Assembly (NCBI GenBank): GCA_003567725.1
Contig: PWYU01000080.1
Location: 1 to 46,949 of the forward strand
DNA from: Syntrophomonadaceae bacterium
Lineage (GTDB): Bacteria > Bacillota > Dethiobacteria > DTU022
DNA length: 46,949 nucleotides
Reading direction: 5' to 3'
The position numbers and the translations under genes were made by a program. Below, piece by piece: positions 35,460-46,928 of the stretch; the first letter of the stretch is position 1, and each line of letters opens with the position of its first letter. Under the pieces are notes generated by a model. It saw nothing but the letters and a program-made list of their open reading frames with translations. It searched no databases and was not told the DNA's origin.

Positions 35460-35564
35460 AAAGTATCTTTAATTGATAATAAAGCCAGTTAAGCTTGAAC
35501 AGCCTATTTTTTTACTTTTGTATTGCGCTTAACGGGTTGCTTATAAAAAGCTGTCTGGTTTAAA

Positions 35565-35604
35565 AAGATAGGGTTACCGGTAATATAACCGGTAACCCTA
35601 TCTT
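35565..35604 (-). terminator. Strong terminator between convergent operons
   Basis: A perfect 17-bp stem, AAGATAGGGTTACCGGT and its complement (35565-35581, 35588-35604), surrounds a six-base loop. Read on the minus strand it ends in CTTTTTA, so it terminates the lysine-dehydrogenase-like gene. It may also stop transcripts from dctM. Confidence 0.8.
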
Positions 35605-35613
35605 CAATAGTTG

Positions 35614-37609: not shown

Positions 37610-38923
37610 TTAATCAAATAAAAGGTTGGGTAACCATAGCACTATCTGAGGATAGAGCATAATTAGCAATAACCCAATCCCTTGAATAATCAGGAAAGGG
37701 ATAATGGAACGATAAATGTCTCCCATAGTTATATCGGGTGGTGCCACAGATTTCATAAGAAACAGGCAGTAGCCAAAAGGCGGTGTAAGATAAGCCATTT
37801 GCATATTAACCAGGTAAAGGACACCAAACCATACTGGATCAAAACCCAACTCCTGGATGATGGGAATGTAAATGGGCATAGTAATAAATAGAATAGCTGT
37901 ATCGTCCAAACATGTCCCCATAATGAAAAAACTGAGCTGCATTAATAAAAGAATGCCTATTGGTTCCAGGGGCAGATTGAGAACCACTGCTTCTACTATA
38001 GTTTTTGCTCCAAGCAGGTTGTAAAGCCTGCCGAAAGTAAGAGCGGACATAAAGATCCACATGGTCATACTGGTAAGCTTTAATGTGGTCATGAGGGCTT
38101 CGTTGATAACTTGCCATTTAAGCCGCCTTTTAATGAAAACTGCCACCAAGCTGGCCATGGCGCCGATTGCTGAAGCCTCGACCGGGGTAACTATTCTGAG
38201 CAAAATTGTTCCGATTACTGCAGCAATGATACCGGCGGGTAGAACCAGGTGGCTAAGCGATTTCAACTTTTCCTGCATACTGGGCCTTTCTTCTTTGGGA
38301 ACAGGGGGAGCTAAATGCGGCTGAAGTTTACATCTAACAATTATATAAATAACAAACATAACAAATAGTAACAGGCCTGGTAGTACGCCTCCGGCAAACA
38401 ACCTGCCAATCGATTCCCTGGCGATAATGGCATAGAGGATCGCAATGATGCTCGGTGGTATGAGAAAGCCCAAAGCTGCCCCGGCCTGGATGCACCCTGT
38501 GGCTAAAGTCTTAGAATAGCCACGCTTGCGCATCAAGGGTAGGGCAATGGTCCCCATACAAAGGGTGGCAGTAGTCTCAGAGCCCTCTATAGCTGCGATC
38601 AAGGTGCTGGTTCCTACCGTAGCGCAGGCCAGTCCTCCCGGTACCGGAGTTAACCAGTTGTGAAAGGTGGTATAGACATCATCAGCTATGTGTGAGTAGT
38701 AAAGCATCATACCCATAAAAACAAACATTGGGACAGCCATTAAAGCTTCGTAACCCATGATGCTTTCGGTTCCATGCAGTGCCAGGGGGAAAACCCTTGG
38801 CCCGTACAGAAAAAGGCCGACTATCATACACCAACCTCCCAGGGCGAAAGTTATCGGTAAGCCGGTAAGCAAAACGAGCAGCATTCCACCAAAAAGGAGG
38901 ATAGTGATCTCGATAATACTCAT
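37610..38923 (-). CDS. dctM: TRAP transporter large permease DctM (system 2)
   Basis: This is a 437-residue DctM of the same size as in system 1 but clearly diverged. Features are IEGSETTATLCMGTIALPLM, GAALGFLIPPSIIAILYAI and the terminal IYRSIIPFLIIQGIGLLLIM. About twelve membrane segments are expected. Its ATG overlaps the dctQ stop by four bases (ATGA), showing coupled translation. The MoaD-like gene follows after 123 bases on the same strand. Confidence 0.93.
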   Translation of the reverse strand: MSIIEITILLFGGMLLVLLTGLPITFALGGWCMIVGLFLYGPRVFPLALHGTESIMGYEALMAVPMFVFMGMMLYYSHIADDVYTTFHNWLTPVPGGLACATVGTSTLIAAIEGSETTATLCMGTIALPLMRKRGYSKTLATGCIQAGAALGFLIPPSIIAILYAIIARESIGRLFAGGVLPGLLLFVMFVIYIIVRCKLQPHLAPPVPKEERPSMQEKLKSLSHLVLPAGIIAAVIGTILLRIVTPVEASAIGAMASLVAVFIKRRLKWQVINEALMTTLKLTSMTMWIFMSALTFGRLYNLLGAKTIVEAVVLNLPLEPIGILLLMQLSFFIMGTCLDDTAILFITMPIYIPIIQELGFDPVWFGVLYLVNMQMAYLTPPFGYCLFLMKSVAPPDITMGDIYRSIIPFLIIQGIGLLLIMLYPQIVLWLPNLLFD

Positions 38924-39459
38924 TCTAGTTCCCTCCCCGTGATGGCTAAATATAGATTACGGCTAAAATTAGAAAAACCTGCCAGTATAATGAGGCTGAA
39001 AGATACAGGTACAATCAACCTTAATGGCCAGACAAGAGGCCTCCACAATCCGCTAAAACGTGCCTCTCTTATGTAGCTTAACCAGAACCAGTCCCATCCA
39101 TATATCAATATCAGGCCGCAATAAAAAAAGAAAAGAAGATAAGTAAAAGAGTTCATGATCGCTTTTTTCCTGGGAGTAAGGCGCTGGTAGAGAACATCCA
39201 TACGGACGTGAGCATCTTGCAGCAGAACATAGCCCCCGACCAGCATCCAGTAGGGAACGAAAAGCTTTCCCGTTAATGGCAAGGCCCAGGTAGAAGGGCT
39301 GCCGACAAAATATCTCATCACCACATGATAGATCAAAAGACAGATCATTACTATATTAAGCCAGGTAATAACTCTGGCAATGTACTCGTTTGCCTTTTCA
39401 ATACCCCGAAGGATTGGAGAGAGCTTACTAATAGCTCCTCCGATAATTTCAACTACCAT
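38920..39459 (-). CDS. dctQ: TRAP transporter small permease DctQ (system 2)
   Basis: This is a 179-residue four-span membrane protein with the DctQ motif YHVVMRYFVGSPSTWALPLTGKLFVP (split as YHVVMRYFVGSPSTWAL and PLTGKLFVP). Its ATG at 39459 has AGGAGG 8 bases upstream. It lies between dctP, after a 252-base gap holding a stem-loop, and dctM, with a 4-base overlap. Confidence 0.92.
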   Translation of the reverse strand: MVVEIIGGAISKLSPILRGIEKANEYIARVITWLNIVMICLLIYHVVMRYFVGSPSTWALPLTGKLFVPYWMLVGGYVLLQDAHVRMDVLYQRLTPRKKAIMNSFTYLLFFFYCGLILIYGWDWFWLSYIREARFSGLWRPLVWPLRLIVPVSFSLIILAGFSNFSRNLYLAITGRELE

Positions 39460-39666
39460 ATTAATATCCTCCTAAACCTAAACTGTAATTTATAGCATTT
39501 TATGTCCCCTTTACGGACTGTCGTCCCCTTTTATTTTTCTTACTCAAGGTAACACAGGTTTCTTTATCAGCCTGCACCTGTAATCTAAAAATCAATAATT
39601 ATCTTACCAGGTTAAGACAAGGGGTAAAACTTGTTATATTTAATCAATAAAAGATTACCATGAGGC

Positions 39667-39697
39667 GGGGGTGATAAAAAATACCCTGATCACCCCC
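39667..39697 (-). promoter_or_regulatory. dctP-dctQ intergenic stem-loop (system 2)
   Basis: A perfect 9-bp stem GGGGGTGAT/ATCACCCCC with a 13-base loop begins 15 bases after the dctP stop. It occupies the same place as the G-rich stem-loop of system 1 and lacks a T run on the minus strand. Confidence 0.6.
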
Positions 39698-39711
39698 ACC
39701 CGATCACCTTT

Positions 39712-40809
39712 TTATATCCGCCCGAAATCTTCTAACGCCTTCATTACTGCGTTATATATCTCCTGGGTTCGGGGGGTCAAGGGCGCAAATTCGTTTTCAA
39801 GCCATACTAAGGACTCATTAAACATCAGCTCTACATCTTCATCGGGTAAGTCAACTATCTCAATTCCTGCTTCCTCCATGATACGCATAGATTCTGCTTC
39901 GTGAAAACCATAGTAGCTTCTCATCCATATGGTATTGGCATGAACAGCCTCCATCAGTATGTGCTGTAGATCTTCAGGTAAGTCATTCCAAACATCAGGG
40001 TTTATGCAGTAAAAAGGAATAAAGGCGGTTATGAAATAGGGCCGCACAAAAGCACCTTCTCCCGCTACTCCTCCACTTATTGCTGCAGAGTGGAGATCCA
40101 TGTCTACCATGGCCTTTGCTCCACCCCATTCAAGCCCATCAAGGATACCCATGTTTAAATTGTACCAGAGGTCTTCAGCGTCATAATAGACAGCTGATGC
40201 ATCTGCCTGATCCCGCAATACATCCGCAAGAGGGGGATCGATATTAATCGTCATTCCGGCCATATCGTCTATACTTCTAACCGGGCTGCTAAAAAGCAGG
40301 GCCCCCAGGTCATCAACTTGAAAGTCCAGCAGCACGACATCAAACTTTTCCTCTACTGCTTCTCCGAGCAGGTCGGCAACGCCGTAATGCCATAAAGCTG
40401 CCATCACTTCATCCACATCTCTCCACAAAAAGGGTACATATTCGATATAACCTTCATCAAGCACATCCAAATGAAACTGAGGGTGCGTATGGCCCATATC
40501 GATTATTCCGGAAGATACAGCATCGGGTATCTCGCCCGTAGCCACCAGTTCGCCATCGGAGAAAACCTCAATTTCAATTCGACCATCACTCATATTTCCA
40601 ACAATCCGAGCATAGTGCTCGAAGAAATGGTTTTCGGCAGCTCCCCAGGAATGTTGAAGTTTCAATACATATTCTGCATCTGCTGGGGCGGCAACATCTT
40701 CTCCATTCAGATCTTCTGCCATTTCTTCATCTGCACATCCAGGAAGAATTAAAACCGCTAAAAGAGCAGCAATTAATCCTACACTAATAAGCCATTTATT
40801 ATATTTCAT
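39712..40809 (-). CDS. dctP: TRAP transporter solute-binding lipoprotein DctP (system 2)
   Basis: This is a 365-residue DctP receptor with lipobox LPGC (Cys25) and a short acidic linker. The domain is full length. In the ligand-site motif DDMAGMTINIDPP, residue 189 is Asn where TRAP receptors normally have the carboxylate-binding Arg (system 1 has MIVRATG). This suggests a ligand that is not a simple carboxylate, perhaps an amine or zwitterion, which would fit the aminotransferase-AOR genes upstream. The start is ATG 40809, preceded by GGAGGAG about 11 bases away; the frame runs to 40872 without a ribosome site. Confidence 0.9.
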   Translation of the reverse strand: MKYNKWLISVGLIAALLAVLILPGCADEEMAEDLNGEDVAAPADAEYVLKLQHSWGAAENHFFEHYARIVGNMSDGRIEIEVFSDGELVATGEIPDAVSSGIIDMGHTHPQFHLDVLDEGYIEYVPFLWRDVDEVMAALWHYGVADLLGEAVEEKFDVVLLDFQVDDLGALLFSSPVRSIDDMAGMTINIDPPLADVLRDQADASAVYYDAEDLWYNLNMGILDGLEWGGAKAMVDMDLHSAAISGGVAGEGAFVRPYFITAFIPFYCINPDVWNDLPEDLQHILMEAVHANTIWMRSYYGFHEAESMRIMEEAGIEIVDLPDEDVELMFNESLVWLENEFAPLTPRTQEIYNAVMKALEDFGRI

Positions 40810-41327
40810 AGTTTTTTTACTCCTCCTCTTTATAATAATTTTTAGTGTTTCAAAATAATCAATCTTAATCAAGCTATTCTCTCATAAAAACCACCTCCCT
40901 CGTTTTCCTGTTTCAGTTTGAAATTAGGGTATTTGCATAATTATACTTTATCATTATTATATTTGGTAGATTAATTTGTTAATTTTATATGATGATAATT
41001 TTACCAAGATACTTAAAATTTAAATACCTAACTTTAATAAATTAAGAAGGGTTATAACGCTTGTTATAGCTTTAATATTTCCTTCTAATCATGGTTTGTA
41101 CAGCAAAATATCAAAGTTTAAAGATCTGCTTTTAATTCTATTATAGGTAATATCAAAATTATTGGTTAGGCAGTTAAGTGTTCTTTACAGCGCTAAACCA
41201 AACAGGCAGTTTAAAGAAACTGGATATATATTGGTTGAGACTTGAGAAAGCTTATACCAGGCAGGGCACTGTTTTTGTATCGGCAGCGCCCTGCCCTTTT
41301 TCTATTTTTCTTATTGGCTAACTTTTG
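40810..41327. other. AOR-dctP intergenic region with stem-loop
   Basis: These 518 bases have no supported gene. GGCAGGGC (41260-41267) and GCCCTGCC (41288-41295) pair; a T run follows only on the plus strand, though the stem may also mark the 3' end of the aor message. On the minus strand TTAACA and TATAAT (40982-40956) have a 15-base spacer and could be a weak dctP promoter. TTATAAC/GTTATA arms lie at about 41052-41069. No -24/-12 promoter was found here. Confidence 0.45.
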
Positions 41328-43085
41328 CTAAAGATTTAATTCTTGTTTTTTATTTTCGCTTATCTGCCCGTCTTGATCCCAACCTCTTATGCGGTAATAT
41401 TCGTGAAGCATTCTTTCATAATCTTCACGAGGCAGCACTTTACCGGCCGAAGGTCCGCTGGAGAGAGGATCTTTAAAAATTCGCTCCGGCAATGAATCAT
41501 CTTTTGCTGTAAATCCCTCTCTTTCGTTGAATAATCGGGCTAGGTTAGATACTCTTTCCCCAATTGTTTTTAAGTCATCGGCGTGCATTTTACAGCCGAG
41601 AGCTGCACTCAGGATTTCGGCCTGGGTTTCTCCGTCGTTATCCCAGAAATCGCAGAAGATGGCAGAAAACTTTGCAGAGTTGGCGTCCTGCATATCTTTT
41701 ACCATTTCTGCTTTGCCCTCAATCGTGTAAGGATCTCCAGCATCATCAAAAGTTTCAACGGCAATCGGCCAGGCTCTCATGTGGCAGGCGCCGCGATCCG
41801 AGGTGGCATAAGCCAGGCCCATTCCCCAGGAGCCCCGAGGCTCATAACCGGGGAACTCCAGCCCTTTAACCTGCATGGCGAACTCACTGCCACCGTATTT
41901 TTGTGCAAGGTCCCGCACTCCTTTTGCCAGTTCGGTTCCTATACCTTCCAGCCTGGCAATTTTGGCAGGGATTTTGAGATATTCTTCGACGCCTCCAAAC
42001 CTCAGTCCAAAATCGTGGATTCCTTTTTCCGTAAGTTCCATGGCAAATGCTGTTACATTTCCAGCAGAAATCGTATCAATCCCGTAATCATCACAAAGCC
42101 GGTTAAACTCAGCAATTGCCTCTAAATCGGCAATTCCGCAATTTGAGCCGCAAAGCGCAAGAGTTTCATACTCGGGGCCTTCCACTACACTTTTACCAGC
42201 CTTGATATAGTTGCCGCAGCCCAGGGGGCAGGCAAAACAGGCTTTTTTTGAGGTGCAAACTTTCTTTACCGCTTCTGTATCGATTGCCTTGTATTCCTCA
42301 AAAGCGCCATCTTGAAAATTGCGGGTTGGTAAAGTCCCTGTAGTTTGAGTTAGTTCCACAATCATGGGAGTACCGTCGCTATAAGTCCACATGTTGTCGT
42401 CACTCATAGTGTTTTCCCGGCGCAGTTTATTCATGGCCACTGTAAATTTGCGAATATCGGGAACATCTACTCCCCCTGATCCTTTTACTGAGATTGCCTT
42501 TAAATTCTTGCTGCCCATTACGGCTCCAATCCCGCCTCGACCGGCCTGCCGGTATAACTCGGAGTTTATGCAAGACATTGTTAAAAGGTTTTCTCCGGCC
42601 GGTCCAATAACCAGAACCCTGGTATCTTTATCCCTTTCTTTAATGAGATGTTCGGTTTCATGGGCCCCTTTGCCCCAAAGATAATTAGCGTTGCGCAATT
42701 CAACTTTATCGTCTTCGATGTATAAATAAACTGGAACACTGGCCTTTCCTTCAATAATGATTCCATCATAGCCGGCATATTTTATTTCTGCAGCAATAGC
42801 GCCTCCTATAGAGCAATCAAGAATTGTTCCGGTAGCCGGTGATTTTGAAGCTATAGCCAATTTTCCCGAATTGGGAGCATTCGTACCGGTTAAAGGCCCG
42901 GTCATCAAAATCAATTTATTTTCCGGTAACAAAGGATCAACTCCGGCTGTCAATTCTTCATAAAGGTATTTAATGCTCAGACCCTTTCCTCCCAAATAAT
43001 CACGGGCCCAAAGGGTATTTAGGTTTTCAGTCTGCGCTTTTCCCGTTGATAAATTAACTCTCAAAATCTTGTTGGTGTAAGCCAT
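41328..43085 (-). CDS. aor: Tungsten-type aldehyde:ferredoxin oxidoreductase
   Basis: This is a 585-residue AOR-family enzyme that oxidises aldehydes to carboxylic acids and passes electrons to ferredoxin. The N-terminal cofactor domain has YLGGKGLSIKYLYEEL, LTGTNAPNSGKLAIASKSP and GRGGIGAVMGSKNLKAI. The 4Fe-4S site begins CFACPLGC, with a further Cys in AIFCDFWDN. GYEPRGSWGMGLAYATSDRGACHMRA is the conserved pterin/active-site region (split as GYEPRGSWGMGLAYATS and DRGACHMRA). The tungsten pterin cofactor is inferred from the family. The ATG directly abuts the TAA of the aminotransferase-ferredoxin gene, with GAGGAGGTG upstream inside that gene, so the two are translated together. Confidence 0.93.
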   Translation of the reverse strand: MAYTNKILRVNLSTGKAQTENLNTLWARDYLGGKGLSIKYLYEELTAGVDPLLPENKLILMTGPLTGTNAPNSGKLAIASKSPATGTILDCSIGGAIAAEIKYAGYDGIIIEGKASVPVYLYIEDDKVELRNANYLWGKGAHETEHLIKERDKDTRVLVIGPAGENLLTMSCINSELYRQAGRGGIGAVMGSKNLKAISVKGSGGVDVPDIRKFTVAMNKLRRENTMSDDNMWTYSDGTPMIVELTQTTGTLPTRNFQDGAFEEYKAIDTEAVKKVCTSKKACFACPLGCGNYIKAGKSVVEGPEYETLALCGSNCGIADLEAIAEFNRLCDDYGIDTISAGNVTAFAMELTEKGIHDFGLRFGGVEEYLKIPAKIARLEGIGTELAKGVRDLAQKYGGSEFAMQVKGLEFPGYEPRGSWGMGLAYATSDRGACHMRAWPIAVETFDDAGDPYTIEGKAEMVKDMQDANSAKFSAIFCDFWDNDGETQAEILSAALGCKMHADDLKTIGERVSNLARLFNEREGFTAKDDSLPERIFKDPLSSGPSAGKVLPREDYERMLHEYYRIRGWDQDGQISENKKQELNL

Positions 43086-44831
43086 TTAACTTGTCACCTC
43101 CTCGTAAGTCAAAGCCCTGGTGGGGCACCAGCTAACGCAGCTCATACATTGCACACATACACCTACACCACGCTCTTTTTTAACGATTACATTGTGAGGG
43201 CATATATCAACGCAAATCTTACAGTCAGTACAGATTGACTCATCAAATGCAAGACGTCCATTTTTAAATATAATTGCGTTGGTCGGGCAAGTGTTCACAC
43301 ATTCCAAACACAAATCACATGTTTGTCCCTTGATTTCCAGGCCGGCCCTGGTATATTCGGAAGTTACTTTTAAACGGCTAAGTGATGGATTAAATGTTTG
43401 TTCATTTTGAGCGCTGCATGCCAGATGACAAAGTTTACAGCCTATGCATTTATCTGCTTCAAATCTTAGTATTTTGGAACCCCGGGCGGCTGCTGCACTT
43501 GATTTGGAAACTTTATTGAGGACTTTGTCCAGTGTTTCCAATACGTAATCCATTTCGTCGTAACTGATGGTCAAGGTTGGTTCAATTCTTATGGTCTTGG
43601 CGTTAATCAAAGTTCCTGCCACCAGGATCCCGTTATCGAACAATCCTTTGGCCACTTCAAAACCGGTTTCATCGTCAACAAACTCCAAACCTATCAGCAA
43701 GCCTCTACCGCGCGCTTCTTTCATCAAAGGCTGCTTTTCAGCTATTTGTTTAATTTTAGGCAAGAAATAGTCGCCTTTTTCCTTGGATTGTTGTACTAAG
43801 TTTTCTTCTATAATTACATTAATTGCTGCAATGGCTGCTGCGCAGGCTACGGGGTTACCTCCAAAGGTTGTGGTATGCAAGAAAGGATTGGGAGTCATCT
43901 TTTCAAAGATTTTCCTGGTGGATACGAAAGCTCCGATAGGCATAACCCCGCCACCGAAAGCCTTAGCCAGGCACATGATGTCGGGAACTACATTATAATG
44001 TTCCATTCCGAACATTTTACCAGTACGGCCCATACCGGTTTGCACTTCGTCGGCAATCAATAAAACTTCGAATTCATCACAAATCTCTCTTACTTCTTTA
44101 AAGTAATTATCGGGAGGAATAATTACTCCTCCTTCACCCTGGATGGGTTCCAATATCACCGCTGCGATTTTGCTGCCAACGGCAAAGCTGCTGTGGATTA
44201 CTTTGCGCATGGTTTCGGCATCGCCATAAGGAACATGTTGAACACCCGGTATCAAGGGCAGGTACGGCGCTCTAAAAACCTCTTTAGCAGTGGCGCTTAA
44301 GGATCCCTGAGACTTTCCGTGAAACGCCCCCACTGTAGAAATTATACCCGGGCACCCTGTATGCAGTTTGGCCAGCTTTAAAGCTCCTTCAACTGATTCA
44401 GTGCCGCTGTTGGTAAAAAACGAAAAATTTAACTCCCCGGGTGTTATCATAGCAACCAGCTTGGCCAGCATTGCCCTTAATGGATCAAGCAACTCCTGGC
44501 TGTGTAAAGCCTGGCGGTTAAGCTGATCTTTTACTGCTTTAAGTACTTTGGGATGCCGGTGGCCGACGTTATAAATACCGTAGCCTCCAAGGCAGTCAAG
44601 AAAACGGTTGCCATAAATGTCGACAAAACCGGTGCCGCTGTCTTCCCATTCTACGGCAGCATAATCAGTGGAAACTGATTTCCGGTATTCTAAAAAACCG
44701 GGGTTGTAGTTATCCCTAAAACCCTCAAGGGTTTCTTTAGCTACCCATTCTTTTTCTTCATCATTAAGCTCCCTTTTTGATATAAAGTCCAGAACTTTTT
44801 TGGAGAAGTCAAAACTCTCACTTAAACTCAT
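43086..44831 (-). CDS. Putrescine-type aminotransferase fused to a four-cluster polyferredoxin
   Basis: This is a 581-residue fusion. Residues 1 to about 450 are a complete class III aminotransferase that closely follows the E. coli putrescine aminotransferase (PatA/YgjG) pattern: ALHSQELLDPLRAMLAKL, NSGTESVEGALKLAK, ADEVQTGMGRTG and LAKAFGGGVMPIGA with Schiff-base Lys290. After an Ala/Ser linker, residues about 454-581 carry four CX2CX2CX3C motifs starting at Cys462, 505, 534 and 559, enough for four [4Fe-4S] clusters. The start is the second ATG (44831), 7 bases after AAGGAGG; ATG 44837 is only 1 base away. PatA makes 4-aminobutanal. The adjacent AOR could oxidise that aldehyde and reduce the fused ferredoxin. 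Transcription is from a sigma-54 promoter. Confidence 0.9.
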   Translation of the reverse strand: MSLSESFDFSKKVLDFISKRELNDEEKEWVAKETLEGFRDNYNPGFLEYRKSVSTDYAAVEWEDSGTGFVDIYGNRFLDCLGGYGIYNVGHRHPKVLKAVKDQLNRQALHSQELLDPLRAMLAKLVAMITPGELNFSFFTNSGTESVEGALKLAKLHTGCPGIISTVGAFHGKSQGSLSATAKEVFRAPYLPLIPGVQHVPYGDAETMRKVIHSSFAVGSKIAAVILEPIQGEGGVIIPPDNYFKEVREICDEFEVLLIADEVQTGMGRTGKMFGMEHYNVVPDIMCLAKAFGGGVMPIGAFVSTRKIFEKMTPNPFLHTTTFGGNPVACAAAIAAINVIIEENLVQQSKEKGDYFLPKIKQIAEKQPLMKEARGRGLLIGLEFVDDETGFEVAKGLFDNGILVAGTLINAKTIRIEPTLTISYDEMDYVLETLDKVLNKVSKSSAAAARGSKILRFEADKCIGCKLCHLACSAQNEQTFNPSLSRLKVTSEYTRAGLEIKGQTCDLCLECVNTCPTNAIIFKNGRLAFDESICTDCKICVDICPHNVIVKKERGVGVCVQCMSCVSWCPTRALTYEEVTS

Positions 44832-44972
44832 ATTCATGCCTCCTTGCTGAAGATCTTTATCAACTAAACTTCCTTACCTGAAAAAATTTTACTCTTAGTG
44901 TCACCTCCCTGAAACACTTAAATGTGCTAATTACTGGTTACCGGTTATTGATTCCTGGTGCATTATTAATAC

Positions 44973-44987
44973 GCAATTATTGTGCCA
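44973..44987 (-). promoter_or_regulatory. Sigma-54 (-24/-12) promoter of the aminotransferase-aor genes
   Basis: On the minus strand TGGCAC, five bases (AATAA), TTGC: a full match to the sigma-54 consensus with GG and GC at the correct spacing. Transcription would start near 44961, giving a leader of about 130 bases before the ATG at 44831. The divergent neighbour encodes a sigma-54 activator. Confidence 0.88.
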
Positions 44988-45058
44988 GGTTTAAGAATGC
45001 TTTAAATAAGGAGTTATTGGCTTCATCGAAGCTAAAAAACCAACCACTTCCTCTCAAC

Positions 45059-45088
45059 TTTAAGAAATTTCATTGCAAATTTCTTAAA
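45059..45088. promoter_or_regulatory. Probable enhancer (upstream activator site)
   Basis: This is a perfect inverted repeat, TTTAAGAAATTT, CATTGC, AAATTTCTTAAA. Its centre is about 87 bases upstream of the -24 element, the usual distance for an enhancer-binding protein. It also overlaps the candidate -35 of the regulator gene, so autoregulation is possible. Confidence 0.7.
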
Positions 45089-45113
45089 ATTGAGATATGC
45101 TTTTTAATACAAT
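45084..45113 (+). promoter_or_regulatory. Possible promoter of the sigma-54 activator gene
   Basis: TTAAAA (45084-45089), an 18-base spacer and TACAAT (45108-45113) lie 24 bases before the ATG. The match is moderate and the -35 lies inside the palindrome. Confidence 0.4.
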
Positions 45114-45137: not shown

Positions 45138-46928
45138 ATGGCAAGCTTGAAAGATATTCAGCCAATGGTCCAAGATGTTGCTGAAGCAATTTCTGCTGCA
45201 CTGGGAGTTGAAGTGGAAATTGTTGATGATGAACTTACAGTGATTGCCGGGAGCGGCTATTATAAAGAACGGATCGGTGATATCCTTGAGTATGGAAAAG
45301 TTGAAGGAGACTATCTATATGCTCGTACCTTGCGCCAGCAGAGCGCTTCAGTTGTTACAGATCCGGCTGGAGATCCTAACTATGACCCTTCTTCTCTTAC
45401 AGGTATGACTCGTGAGTTGGGTGAAATTTGCAGTCCTATTCTTTTTAAAAATCAAGCCCTGGGTGTGATTGGGCTTTCAGCGTTAAACAAGGAGCAGCGA
45501 AAGAAGCTCTTTTTCAATAAGGATGCGATCTTGAATTTTCTTAAACATATGAGTCATTTGCTCTCTGTAAAACTTTCCGAATCCGAGACAATGGATCAAT
45601 TAAGCACCTTGTCCCGTGAATTGAAGGTTGTTTTAGAAACCATTCACGAAGGAGCGTTGGCCATTAATTCCGATGGCCTGGTTACTCATTGTAACACTAC
45701 GGCTGCCAGGTTGCTGGGTACCAGCCCGGATGAAATAATCGGCAAACATATTGGTGAATTTTGGGATAAACCGCAGGCACTTGAAGTCTTGAAGACCAAC
45801 CGGCCCTATACTGAAAGAGAGGAAATATATCATACCCGGCAAAAACATATGCATTTTATAGTCTCAGTGCGCCCTATACCGGGTAAAGCCGGTCCGGCCG
45901 GCGCCGTGATTTCTTTCCGCGACATTGCTGAGGCCAGGCGGTTGGTACATGATTTAAGTGATCAGCGGGTTCAGTATACTTTTGATCATATTATCGGGCA
46001 AAGCGGTCCCATCCGGCAGGTTAAAGACCAGGCCATGCAGGTGGCCGGGGGAAGTTCTACCGTATTAATAACCGGCGAAAGCGGGACTGGCAAAGAAATT
46101 TTTGCTCGTGCTATACACGGGGCCAGCTTCTTTGATAAAGGGCCTTTTATTAGTGTTAATTGCGGAGCAATTCCGGAAACGCTGCTTGAAAGTGAATTAT
46201 TTGGTTATGAAGGAGGCGCTTTTACAGGAGCGCATAAGGATGGAAAGGCCGGTAAATTTGAGCTGGCTGTCGGAGGGACCATATTTTTAGATGAAATCGG
46301 TGAAATGCCTCTTCATTTGCAGGTTAAATTACTCCATGTTTTACAAAACCGCCATGTAGAACGAATAGGAGGCAATAAGAAAATACCTGTCAACGTCAGG
46401 ATAATTGCCGCCTCAAACCGGGATTTGGAAATGATGCTGCAGGAAGGTAATTTTCGTAAAGATCTATATTTTAGGCTCAGTGTTATCCCTTTGCATATTC
46501 CACCGCTAAAAGATCGGCGGGAAGATATCCCTCTTTTAGTAGAGCACTGCCTCGAAAAATATTGCCGCATACTGGATAATAATGGTTTGAGGGTTGATCA
46601 GTCTGTTATGGATTGTTACCTCCAGTACCCCTGGCCTGGTAATGTTAGAGAGCTGGAAAACGCTGTGGAGTATTCGGTGAATATGACACATGGAGAACTC
46701 ATTAAAGTGGAGCATATTCCTCCCCGGATTCGCTCTTTTGATAATAGTAAGAGCAAACGGGAGGGATCAGACTTGCAAACTTTACTTAAGAATTATGAAA
46801 GGGATTTGCTTAATGATTATCTGAATAAATACGGTACTTCGTATTACTCAAAAATGAACATCGCCAGAGAATTAAAAATTAGCCGGGCTACTCTTTACCG
46901 AAAACTGACCGAACTGAATCTTTCTTGA
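45138..46928 (+). CDS. Sigma-54-dependent transcriptional activator (GAF-PAS-AAA+-Fis HTH)
   Basis: This is a 596-residue enhancer-binding protein. Residues about 1-150 form a GAF-like sensor and 155-270 a PAS domain (VLETIHEGALAINSDG). An AAA+ domain follows, with Walker A GESGTGKE (313-320), the sigma-54-contacting loop GAFTGA (360-365), Walker B TIFLDEIGEM (381-390) and the WPGNVRELENAV sensor region. A Fis-type helix-turn-helix ends the protein (YYSKMNIARELKISRATLYRKL). No phosphoreceiver domain is present, so it probably senses a small molecule directly. It is divergent from the aminotransferase-ferredoxin/aor genes and is the obvious activator of their sigma-54 promoter. ATG 45138 follows GAGG at about 10 bases. 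Confidence 0.95.
   Translation: MASLKDIQPMVQDVAEAISAALGVEVEIVDDELTVIAGSGYYKERIGDILEYGKVEGDYLYARTLRQQSASVVTDPAGDPNYDPSSLTGMTRELGEICSPILFKNQALGVIGLSALNKEQRKKLFFNKDAILNFLKHMSHLLSVKLSESETMDQLSTLSRELKVVLETIHEGALAINSDGLVTHCNTTAARLLGTSPDEIIGKHIGEFWDKPQALEVLKTNRPYTEREEIYHTRQKHMHFIVSVRPIPGKAGPAGAVISFRDIAEARRLVHDLSDQRVQYTFDHIIGQSGPIRQVKDQAMQVAGGSSTVLITGESGTGKEIFARAIHGASFFDKGPFISVNCGAIPETLLESELFGYEGGAFTGAHKDGKAGKFELAVGGTIFLDEIGEMPLHLQVKLLHVLQNRHVERIGGNKKIPVNVRIIAASNRDLEMMLQEGNFRKDLYFRLSVIPLHIPPLKDRREDIPLLVEHCLEKYCRILDNNGLRVDQSVMDCYLQYPWPGNVRELENAVEYSVNMTHGELIKVEHIPPRIRSFDNSKSKREGSDLQTLLKNYERDLLNDYLNKYGTSYYSKMNIARELKISRATLYRKLTELNLS

Follow-up and report, generated by a model that had tools for sequence, protein, structure and literature searches.

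The locus raises the question of what switches on two genes, one encoding an aminotransferase and the other a tungsten aldehyde:ferredoxin oxidoreductase (AOR), which lie divergently from the gene of a sigma-54 activator (bEBP), and what this pair is for. We suggest, with a probability of about 0.85, that the locus is a sigma-54 circuit with a two-dyad enhancer, in which a ligand switches anaerobic amine oxidation; the binding to the dyads, the ligand, the transcription start and the pathway are those that we infer from sequence. The window hereafter is the whole stretch of 46,949 nucleotides that was analysed, namely contig C102; the genome to which it belongs (labelled G000) comprises 2.39 Mb in 127 contigs. 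With the N-terminal 270 residues of the bEBP as a query, orthologs were collected from another 13 genomes, all in this family, giving 14 orthologous regions together with G000. Most of the ortholog genomes are drafts, and two of them, G001 and G009, belong to the same genus as G000. Because every ortholog comes from one family, conservation across the 14 regions is partly shared ancestry. A scan of named genomes returned one true ortholog, L070 (contig SLPH01000058.1 of G018, a Syntrophomonadaceae MAG), the remainder being distant class III aminotransferases.

Table 1. Positions of the genes, promoters and repeats under discussion; window coordinates unless a locus is named.
Feature	Position	Strand	Basis or remark
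Tungsten aldehyde:ferredoxin oxidoreductase (AOR)	41328..43085	-	AFOR_N (PF02730), AFOR_C (PF01314); structural relatives
Class III aminotransferase (putrescine aminotransferase type) fused to AorA-type ferredoxin	43086..44837	-	profile matches
In-frame aminotransferase-ferredoxin fusion	window 43086-44837; L004 1501-3243; L005 1501-3237		
Sigma-54 promoter TGGCACAATAATTGCG	44972..44987	-	intact -24/-12 element; conserved in 13/14 orthologous regions
-24 GG; -12 GC; predicted transcription start	44986-44985; 44974-44973; near 44961	-	
Enhancer dyad A (predicted) CTCTCAACTTTAAGAA	45051..45066	.	8/10 consensus bases; centre ~72.5 bp upstream of -24; matrix rank 3
44-bp inverted repeat	45052..45095	.	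built by dyads A and B; holds the reported 12-bp arms 45059-45070 and 45077-45088
Candidate sigma-70 promoter of the bEBP gene, TTGCAA-N17-TATGCT	45073..45101	+	dyad B in spacer
Enhancer dyad B (predicted) TTCTTAAAATTGAGAT	45081..45096	.	8/10 consensus bases; centre ~102.5 bp upstream of -24; matrix rank 2
Sigma-54 activator (bEBP), 596 aa	45138..46928	+	GAF, PAS, AAA+ with GAFTGA, probable C-terminal helix-turn-helix
Dyad C TTCTTGAAAATGAGAA	46922..46937	.	spans the bEBP stop codon; top matrix match in window

Both AFOR domains of the AOR stand well above cut-off. Its closest solved relatives are 9mqx (9mqx_D), 1aor and 8c0z (8c0z_A), and by these matches we assign it to the tungsten AOR family. 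Four groups of cysteines are present in the ferredoxin part, which matches Aromatoleum AorA (8c0z_C; E 7.9e-15), a protein for which four Fe-S clusters are described (PMC6365974). The aminotransferase passes the putrescine aminotransferase profile NF008570 (704 against 612) and reaches 595 on the stricter TIGR03372, the cut-off of which is 659. The target operon of aminotransferase and tungsten AOR, which the sequence-only reading had named, is supported. The aminotransferase ORF opens at 44837, and AAGGAGG lies directly before that ATG; its position fits the ATG at 44831 better, so that the latter is probably the start. Throughout the orthologous loci the targets include ferredoxin and AOR, and usually the aminotransferase as well: beside ferredoxin-AOR it shows 66-93% identity or 44-51% identity, or it is missing (G023, G033). 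Ferredoxin and aminotransferase are fused in three genomes of two genera (G000, G001, G018) and are separate neighbouring genes in G027, G013, G030, G015 and G019. The fusion may place aldehyde production beside the AOR.

Two further observations concern the flank of this operon. A second TRAP transporter (DctPQM, 37610-40872) lies between the AOR gene and a saccharopine-dehydrogenase-like gene and is missing from the otherwise similar cluster of G001. A 19-bp-arm inverted repeat (17/19) at 35564-35605, where the DctM and saccharopine-dehydrogenase-like genes converge, is probably a bidirectional terminator.

The gene content supports the claimed amine or aldehyde catabolism, and we would narrow it to a putrescine-type pathway. 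The most economical reading is that putrescine would be converted via 4-aminobutanal to GABA, with the AOR at the dehydrogenase step. Besides the NF008570 match, it is consistent with the GABA transaminase (over cut-off) and CoA-transferase-like gene (by inspection) that follow the bEBP in G001, and with the spermidine synthase gene downstream of the bEBP in G013 and G030. The most serious alternative keeps the circuit and changes the substrate: the aminotransferase would act on another amine or amino acid, with the AOR as a general aldehyde scavenger. We place it somewhat below an even chance, since the aminotransferase varies while ferredoxin and AOR stay, and the TIGR03372 score falls short, whereas NF008570 and the neighbouring genes in G001, G013 and G030 speak for putrescine. 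The literature search found no paper joining putrescine aminotransferase and AOR, and the HpaB_N family, taken as a marker of 4-hydroxybutyryl-CoA dehydratase, has no match in G000. The ortholog of the G001 GABA transaminase is located in G000 on contig C65. We considered C65 as a continuation of the window and found this unsupported, as its upstream gene differs from that in G001. The stretch on C65 (L261, 1010-8357) contains the GABA transaminase, a CoA-transferase-like gene and an apparent further AOR-type gene.

The promoter facing the aminotransferase-AOR genes is as had been claimed. TGGCAC-AATAA-TTGC is present at 44987-44973 on the minus strand with GG and GC 12 bp apart, and a sigma-54 promoter pointing away from the bEBP gene is kept in all orthologous regions except that of G024, which is without a full one in the stretch examined. 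Exact TGGCAY-N5-TTGC occurs twice in the 47-kb window, the second copy being inside a gene, and perfect TGGCAY-N5-TTGCW occurs four times in the G000 genome, two of these adjoining other bEBP genes (C25, C27). A -24/-12 match is by itself not rare; we take the credibility of this one from its context and conservation. The proposal hinges on rpoN, of which G000 has one (G000:C40; 434 bits against a cut-off of 277), and rpoN is found also in all 13 other genomes with a bEBP ortholog.

The divergent gene, read earlier as an activator with GAFTGA, indeed encodes a complete bEBP with Walker A and Walker B as well, and these three motifs are found in 14/14 bEBPs. The AAA+ domain matches PF00158 at 231.5 bits. 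For a Fis-type helix-turn-helix at the C-terminus, HTH_8 reaches 20.8 bits, just below the 22-bit cut-off, and HTH_7 is over its cut-off. The best NCBIfam match, extending over PAS, AAA+ and HTH, is PrdR (NF041552) with 456 bits against a cut-off of 795.

Comparison of the divergent regions reveals a 16-bp dyad, TTCTC-N6-GAGAA, upstream of the bEBP gene in 14/14 orthologs. Two such dyads, A and B, are predicted in the window exactly 30 bp apart. Since their quality (8/10) is reached for a single dyad by 11.7% of shuffled regions, the argument is carried by the cross-genome result: one dyad of the window alone is not significant, and the cross-genome weight matrix is. This matrix, trained only on genomes outside the genus and scanned over 46,934 window positions, has its top three matches at 46922 (19.0 bits), 45081 (18.1) and 45051 (11.0), with the fourth at 9.0. 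Non-orthologous bEBP loci are mostly without strong dyads, L167 (17.1 bits) being among the exceptions.

The spacing was used neither in building the matrix nor in choosing the matches. Of the close dyad pairs in related loci (matrix matches at most 100 bp apart), 12 of 18 are at exactly 30 bp, some of the 18 coming from close relatives and hence not being independent. The 30-bp pairs include those of G000, G001, G009, G018 (two pairs), G024 and G026 (two pairs). The dyad centres are 71.5-74.5 and 101.5-104.5 bp from -24 in G000, G001, G009 and G018, and ~63 and ~93 bp at each of two promoters in G026, which precede ferredoxin-AOR and a transporter gene that by inspection is NhaC-like. As 30 bp is about three helix turns, two dimers would be placed on the same face of the DNA. 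In G018 a sodium:solute symporter gene also has a sigma-54 promoter and a dyad pair. Orthologs of this symporter are absent from G000, G001 and G009, and most of the others have neither a dyad nor a sigma-54 site, so that a transporter is shown to be part of the regulon in no genomes but G018 and G026; G019 and G027 give weaker hints of it. In the G000 genome the paired-dyad pattern with 2 mismatches gives no more matches than the reversed control, and thus no second target was found there.

Dyads occur at other places too. Dyad C has a counterpart at the end of the bEBP gene in G001, G009, G018 and G024, with no sigma-54 promoter after it in G001 and G009. Downstream of the bEBP in G027 and G019 there are two dyads spaced by 30 bp, and a sigma-54 promoter comes after them. 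Five related genomes carry paralogous putrescine-type aminotransferase genes (L012-L016, 54-57% identical), whose sigma-54 promoters lie 79-98 bp ahead of the match; a strong dyad is found only in L012.

Dyad B also touches the candidate promoter of the bEBP gene itself. TTGCWA-N17-TATRCT brackets it in all three genus-mates, and a generic promoter scanner favoured an overlapping match at 45084-45113, the -35 of which is also within dyad B. As an occupied dyad B would in either case cover the place where sigma-70 polymerase is expected to bind, the autoregulation named in the sequence-only reading is plausible and in its simplest form would be negative, so that the bEBP may limit its own synthesis. 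The overlap is not evident in the genomes with one dyad at ~140 bp from the bEBP start, so that negative autoregulation may hold in some genera only.

Such an overlap is what a repressor site would give, and a dyad is found near some non-orthologous bEBPs too. The dyads might then belong to another regulator that represses the bEBP gene, with the true bEBP sites elsewhere. We regard this as improbable. Wherever dyads and sigma-54 promoters are both present, the dyads are at enhancer distance upstream; there are targets away from the bEBP promoter (the G018 symporter, the G026 ferredoxin-AOR and the G027 aminotransferase); and the alternative site TGT-N10-12-ACA is not conserved here, having one chance-like match in each of 3/14 regions.

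The sequence-only reading had placed the enhancer in a perfect 12-bp palindrome. TTTAAGAAATTT-N6-AAATTTCTTAAA is found at 45059-45088, with the repeat centre ~87 bases from the -24 GG, so that the repeat and its distance stand; the single palindrome as the unit of recognition gives way to two 16-bp dyads. The full arms, 45052-45070 and 45077-45095, are 19 bp each and 18/19 complementary with a 6-base loop, and they form the best 19-bp-arm repeat of the window. The 30-bp pattern has a single copy in the genome and appears in 0/100 shuffles, which could suggest that the bEBP recognises TTTAAGAAATTT/AAATTTCTTAAA as one enhancer palindrome. To this we give very little credence, because in G001 and G009 both dyads and the 30-bp spacing are retained while the arms are no longer mirror images, and in the other genera the orthologs have a single dyad and no long repeat of this kind. 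The proposed check on orthologous divergent regions thus goes against the palindrome and for the dyads, and a genome-wide search for further exact copies, as a regulon marker, gave only the one of the window in G000. Each of the reported 12-bp arms covers the inner portion of a dyad and continues into the spacer, and by this comparison the long palindrome is two degenerate adjacent dyads mirroring each other, peculiar to this genome. We rejected as barely conceivable that the 44-bp repeat is an RNA hairpin (leader attenuator or terminator) of the bEBP transcript, because, for all its 19-bp arms and 6-base loop, the candidate bEBP -10 at 45096-45101 puts it upstream of the start, no T-run follows it, Rfam has no riboswitch or other match in the leader, and the pairing is not retained in the genus-mates.

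Hence, we propose the following order of events for the two-dyad circuit.

Step 1: The bEBP would sense its ligand via the N-terminal GAF/PAS region, bind the two TTCTC-N6-GAGAA dyads 30 bp apart and oligomerise there. Occupation of dyad B by the bEBP might also lead to less bEBP synthesis.

Step 2: A DNA loop of ~70-100 bp would bring the bEBP to the sigma-54 RNA polymerase at -24/-12, and the remodelled polymerase would transcribe the gene of the aminotransferase-ferredoxin fusion together with that of the tungsten AOR.

Step 3: The aminotransferase would convert the amine, most likely putrescine, to the aminoaldehyde, which the AOR would oxidise to the amino acid with the transfer of electrons to ferredoxin.

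More tentatively, and with rather less than even confidence, we suggest that the bEBP represents an undescribed group with its own enhancer code, which governs anaerobic putrescine oxidation with a tungsten AOR replacing the NAD-dependent aminobutanal dehydrogenase, and that in some species the electron-transfer subunit of the AOR is fused to the aminotransferase. If true, the fused species would make the aldehyde next to the enzyme that oxidises it. For most clades of tungsten oxidoreductases the physiological role is reported to be unknown (PMC13328260). The defined regulon and its recognisable enhancer link one AOR with an aminotransferase and with an amine pathway that is inducible, and they give this AOR a testable candidate substrate. 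The dyad motif is also a tool for finding further targets of the regulon, and the locus illustrates how a striking palindrome can arise from two neighbouring imperfect operator sites.

At glnA, two NtrC dyads lie about three helical turns apart upstream of the sigma-54 promoter, and NtrC is a phosphorylated response regulator. The paired dyads about three turns apart make the present enhancer similar, by analogy, to that of glnA. However, the NtrC site differs in sequence, and the bEBP here has GAF and PAS, unlike the NtrC response regulator. PrdR, although the best NCBIfam match, is far under the cut-off and has different target genes, and its sites are of the TGT/ACA type, unlike the dyads here (PMC6615313). 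The enzyme resembles AorABC of Aromatoleum aromaticum (8c0z; PMC6365974) in its tungsten large subunit and its small ferredoxin with four cluster motifs; unlike there, no gene of the AorC flavoprotein is seen in the operon, and three genomes have the AorA-like part joined to the aminotransferase. A close precedent is AorR of Clostridium and Geosporobacter, for which sigma-54 control of aor through TGT-N10-12-ACA sites is predicted (Nie et al. 2019, PMC6615313). The present circuit shares with it a bEBP of the adjacent type and a sigma-54 promoter predicted for an aor gene in anaerobic Firmicutes. The sites differ, being TTCTC-N6-GAGAA in 30-bp pairs here. We could match their motif and spacing to no described group; 15 groups in that source have other motifs given only in a figure, and the present motif may coincide with one of these. 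The targets differ as well: AorR acts on aor-moaD for alcohol synthesis, whereas here they are an aminotransferase, an AorA-like ferredoxin and the AOR.
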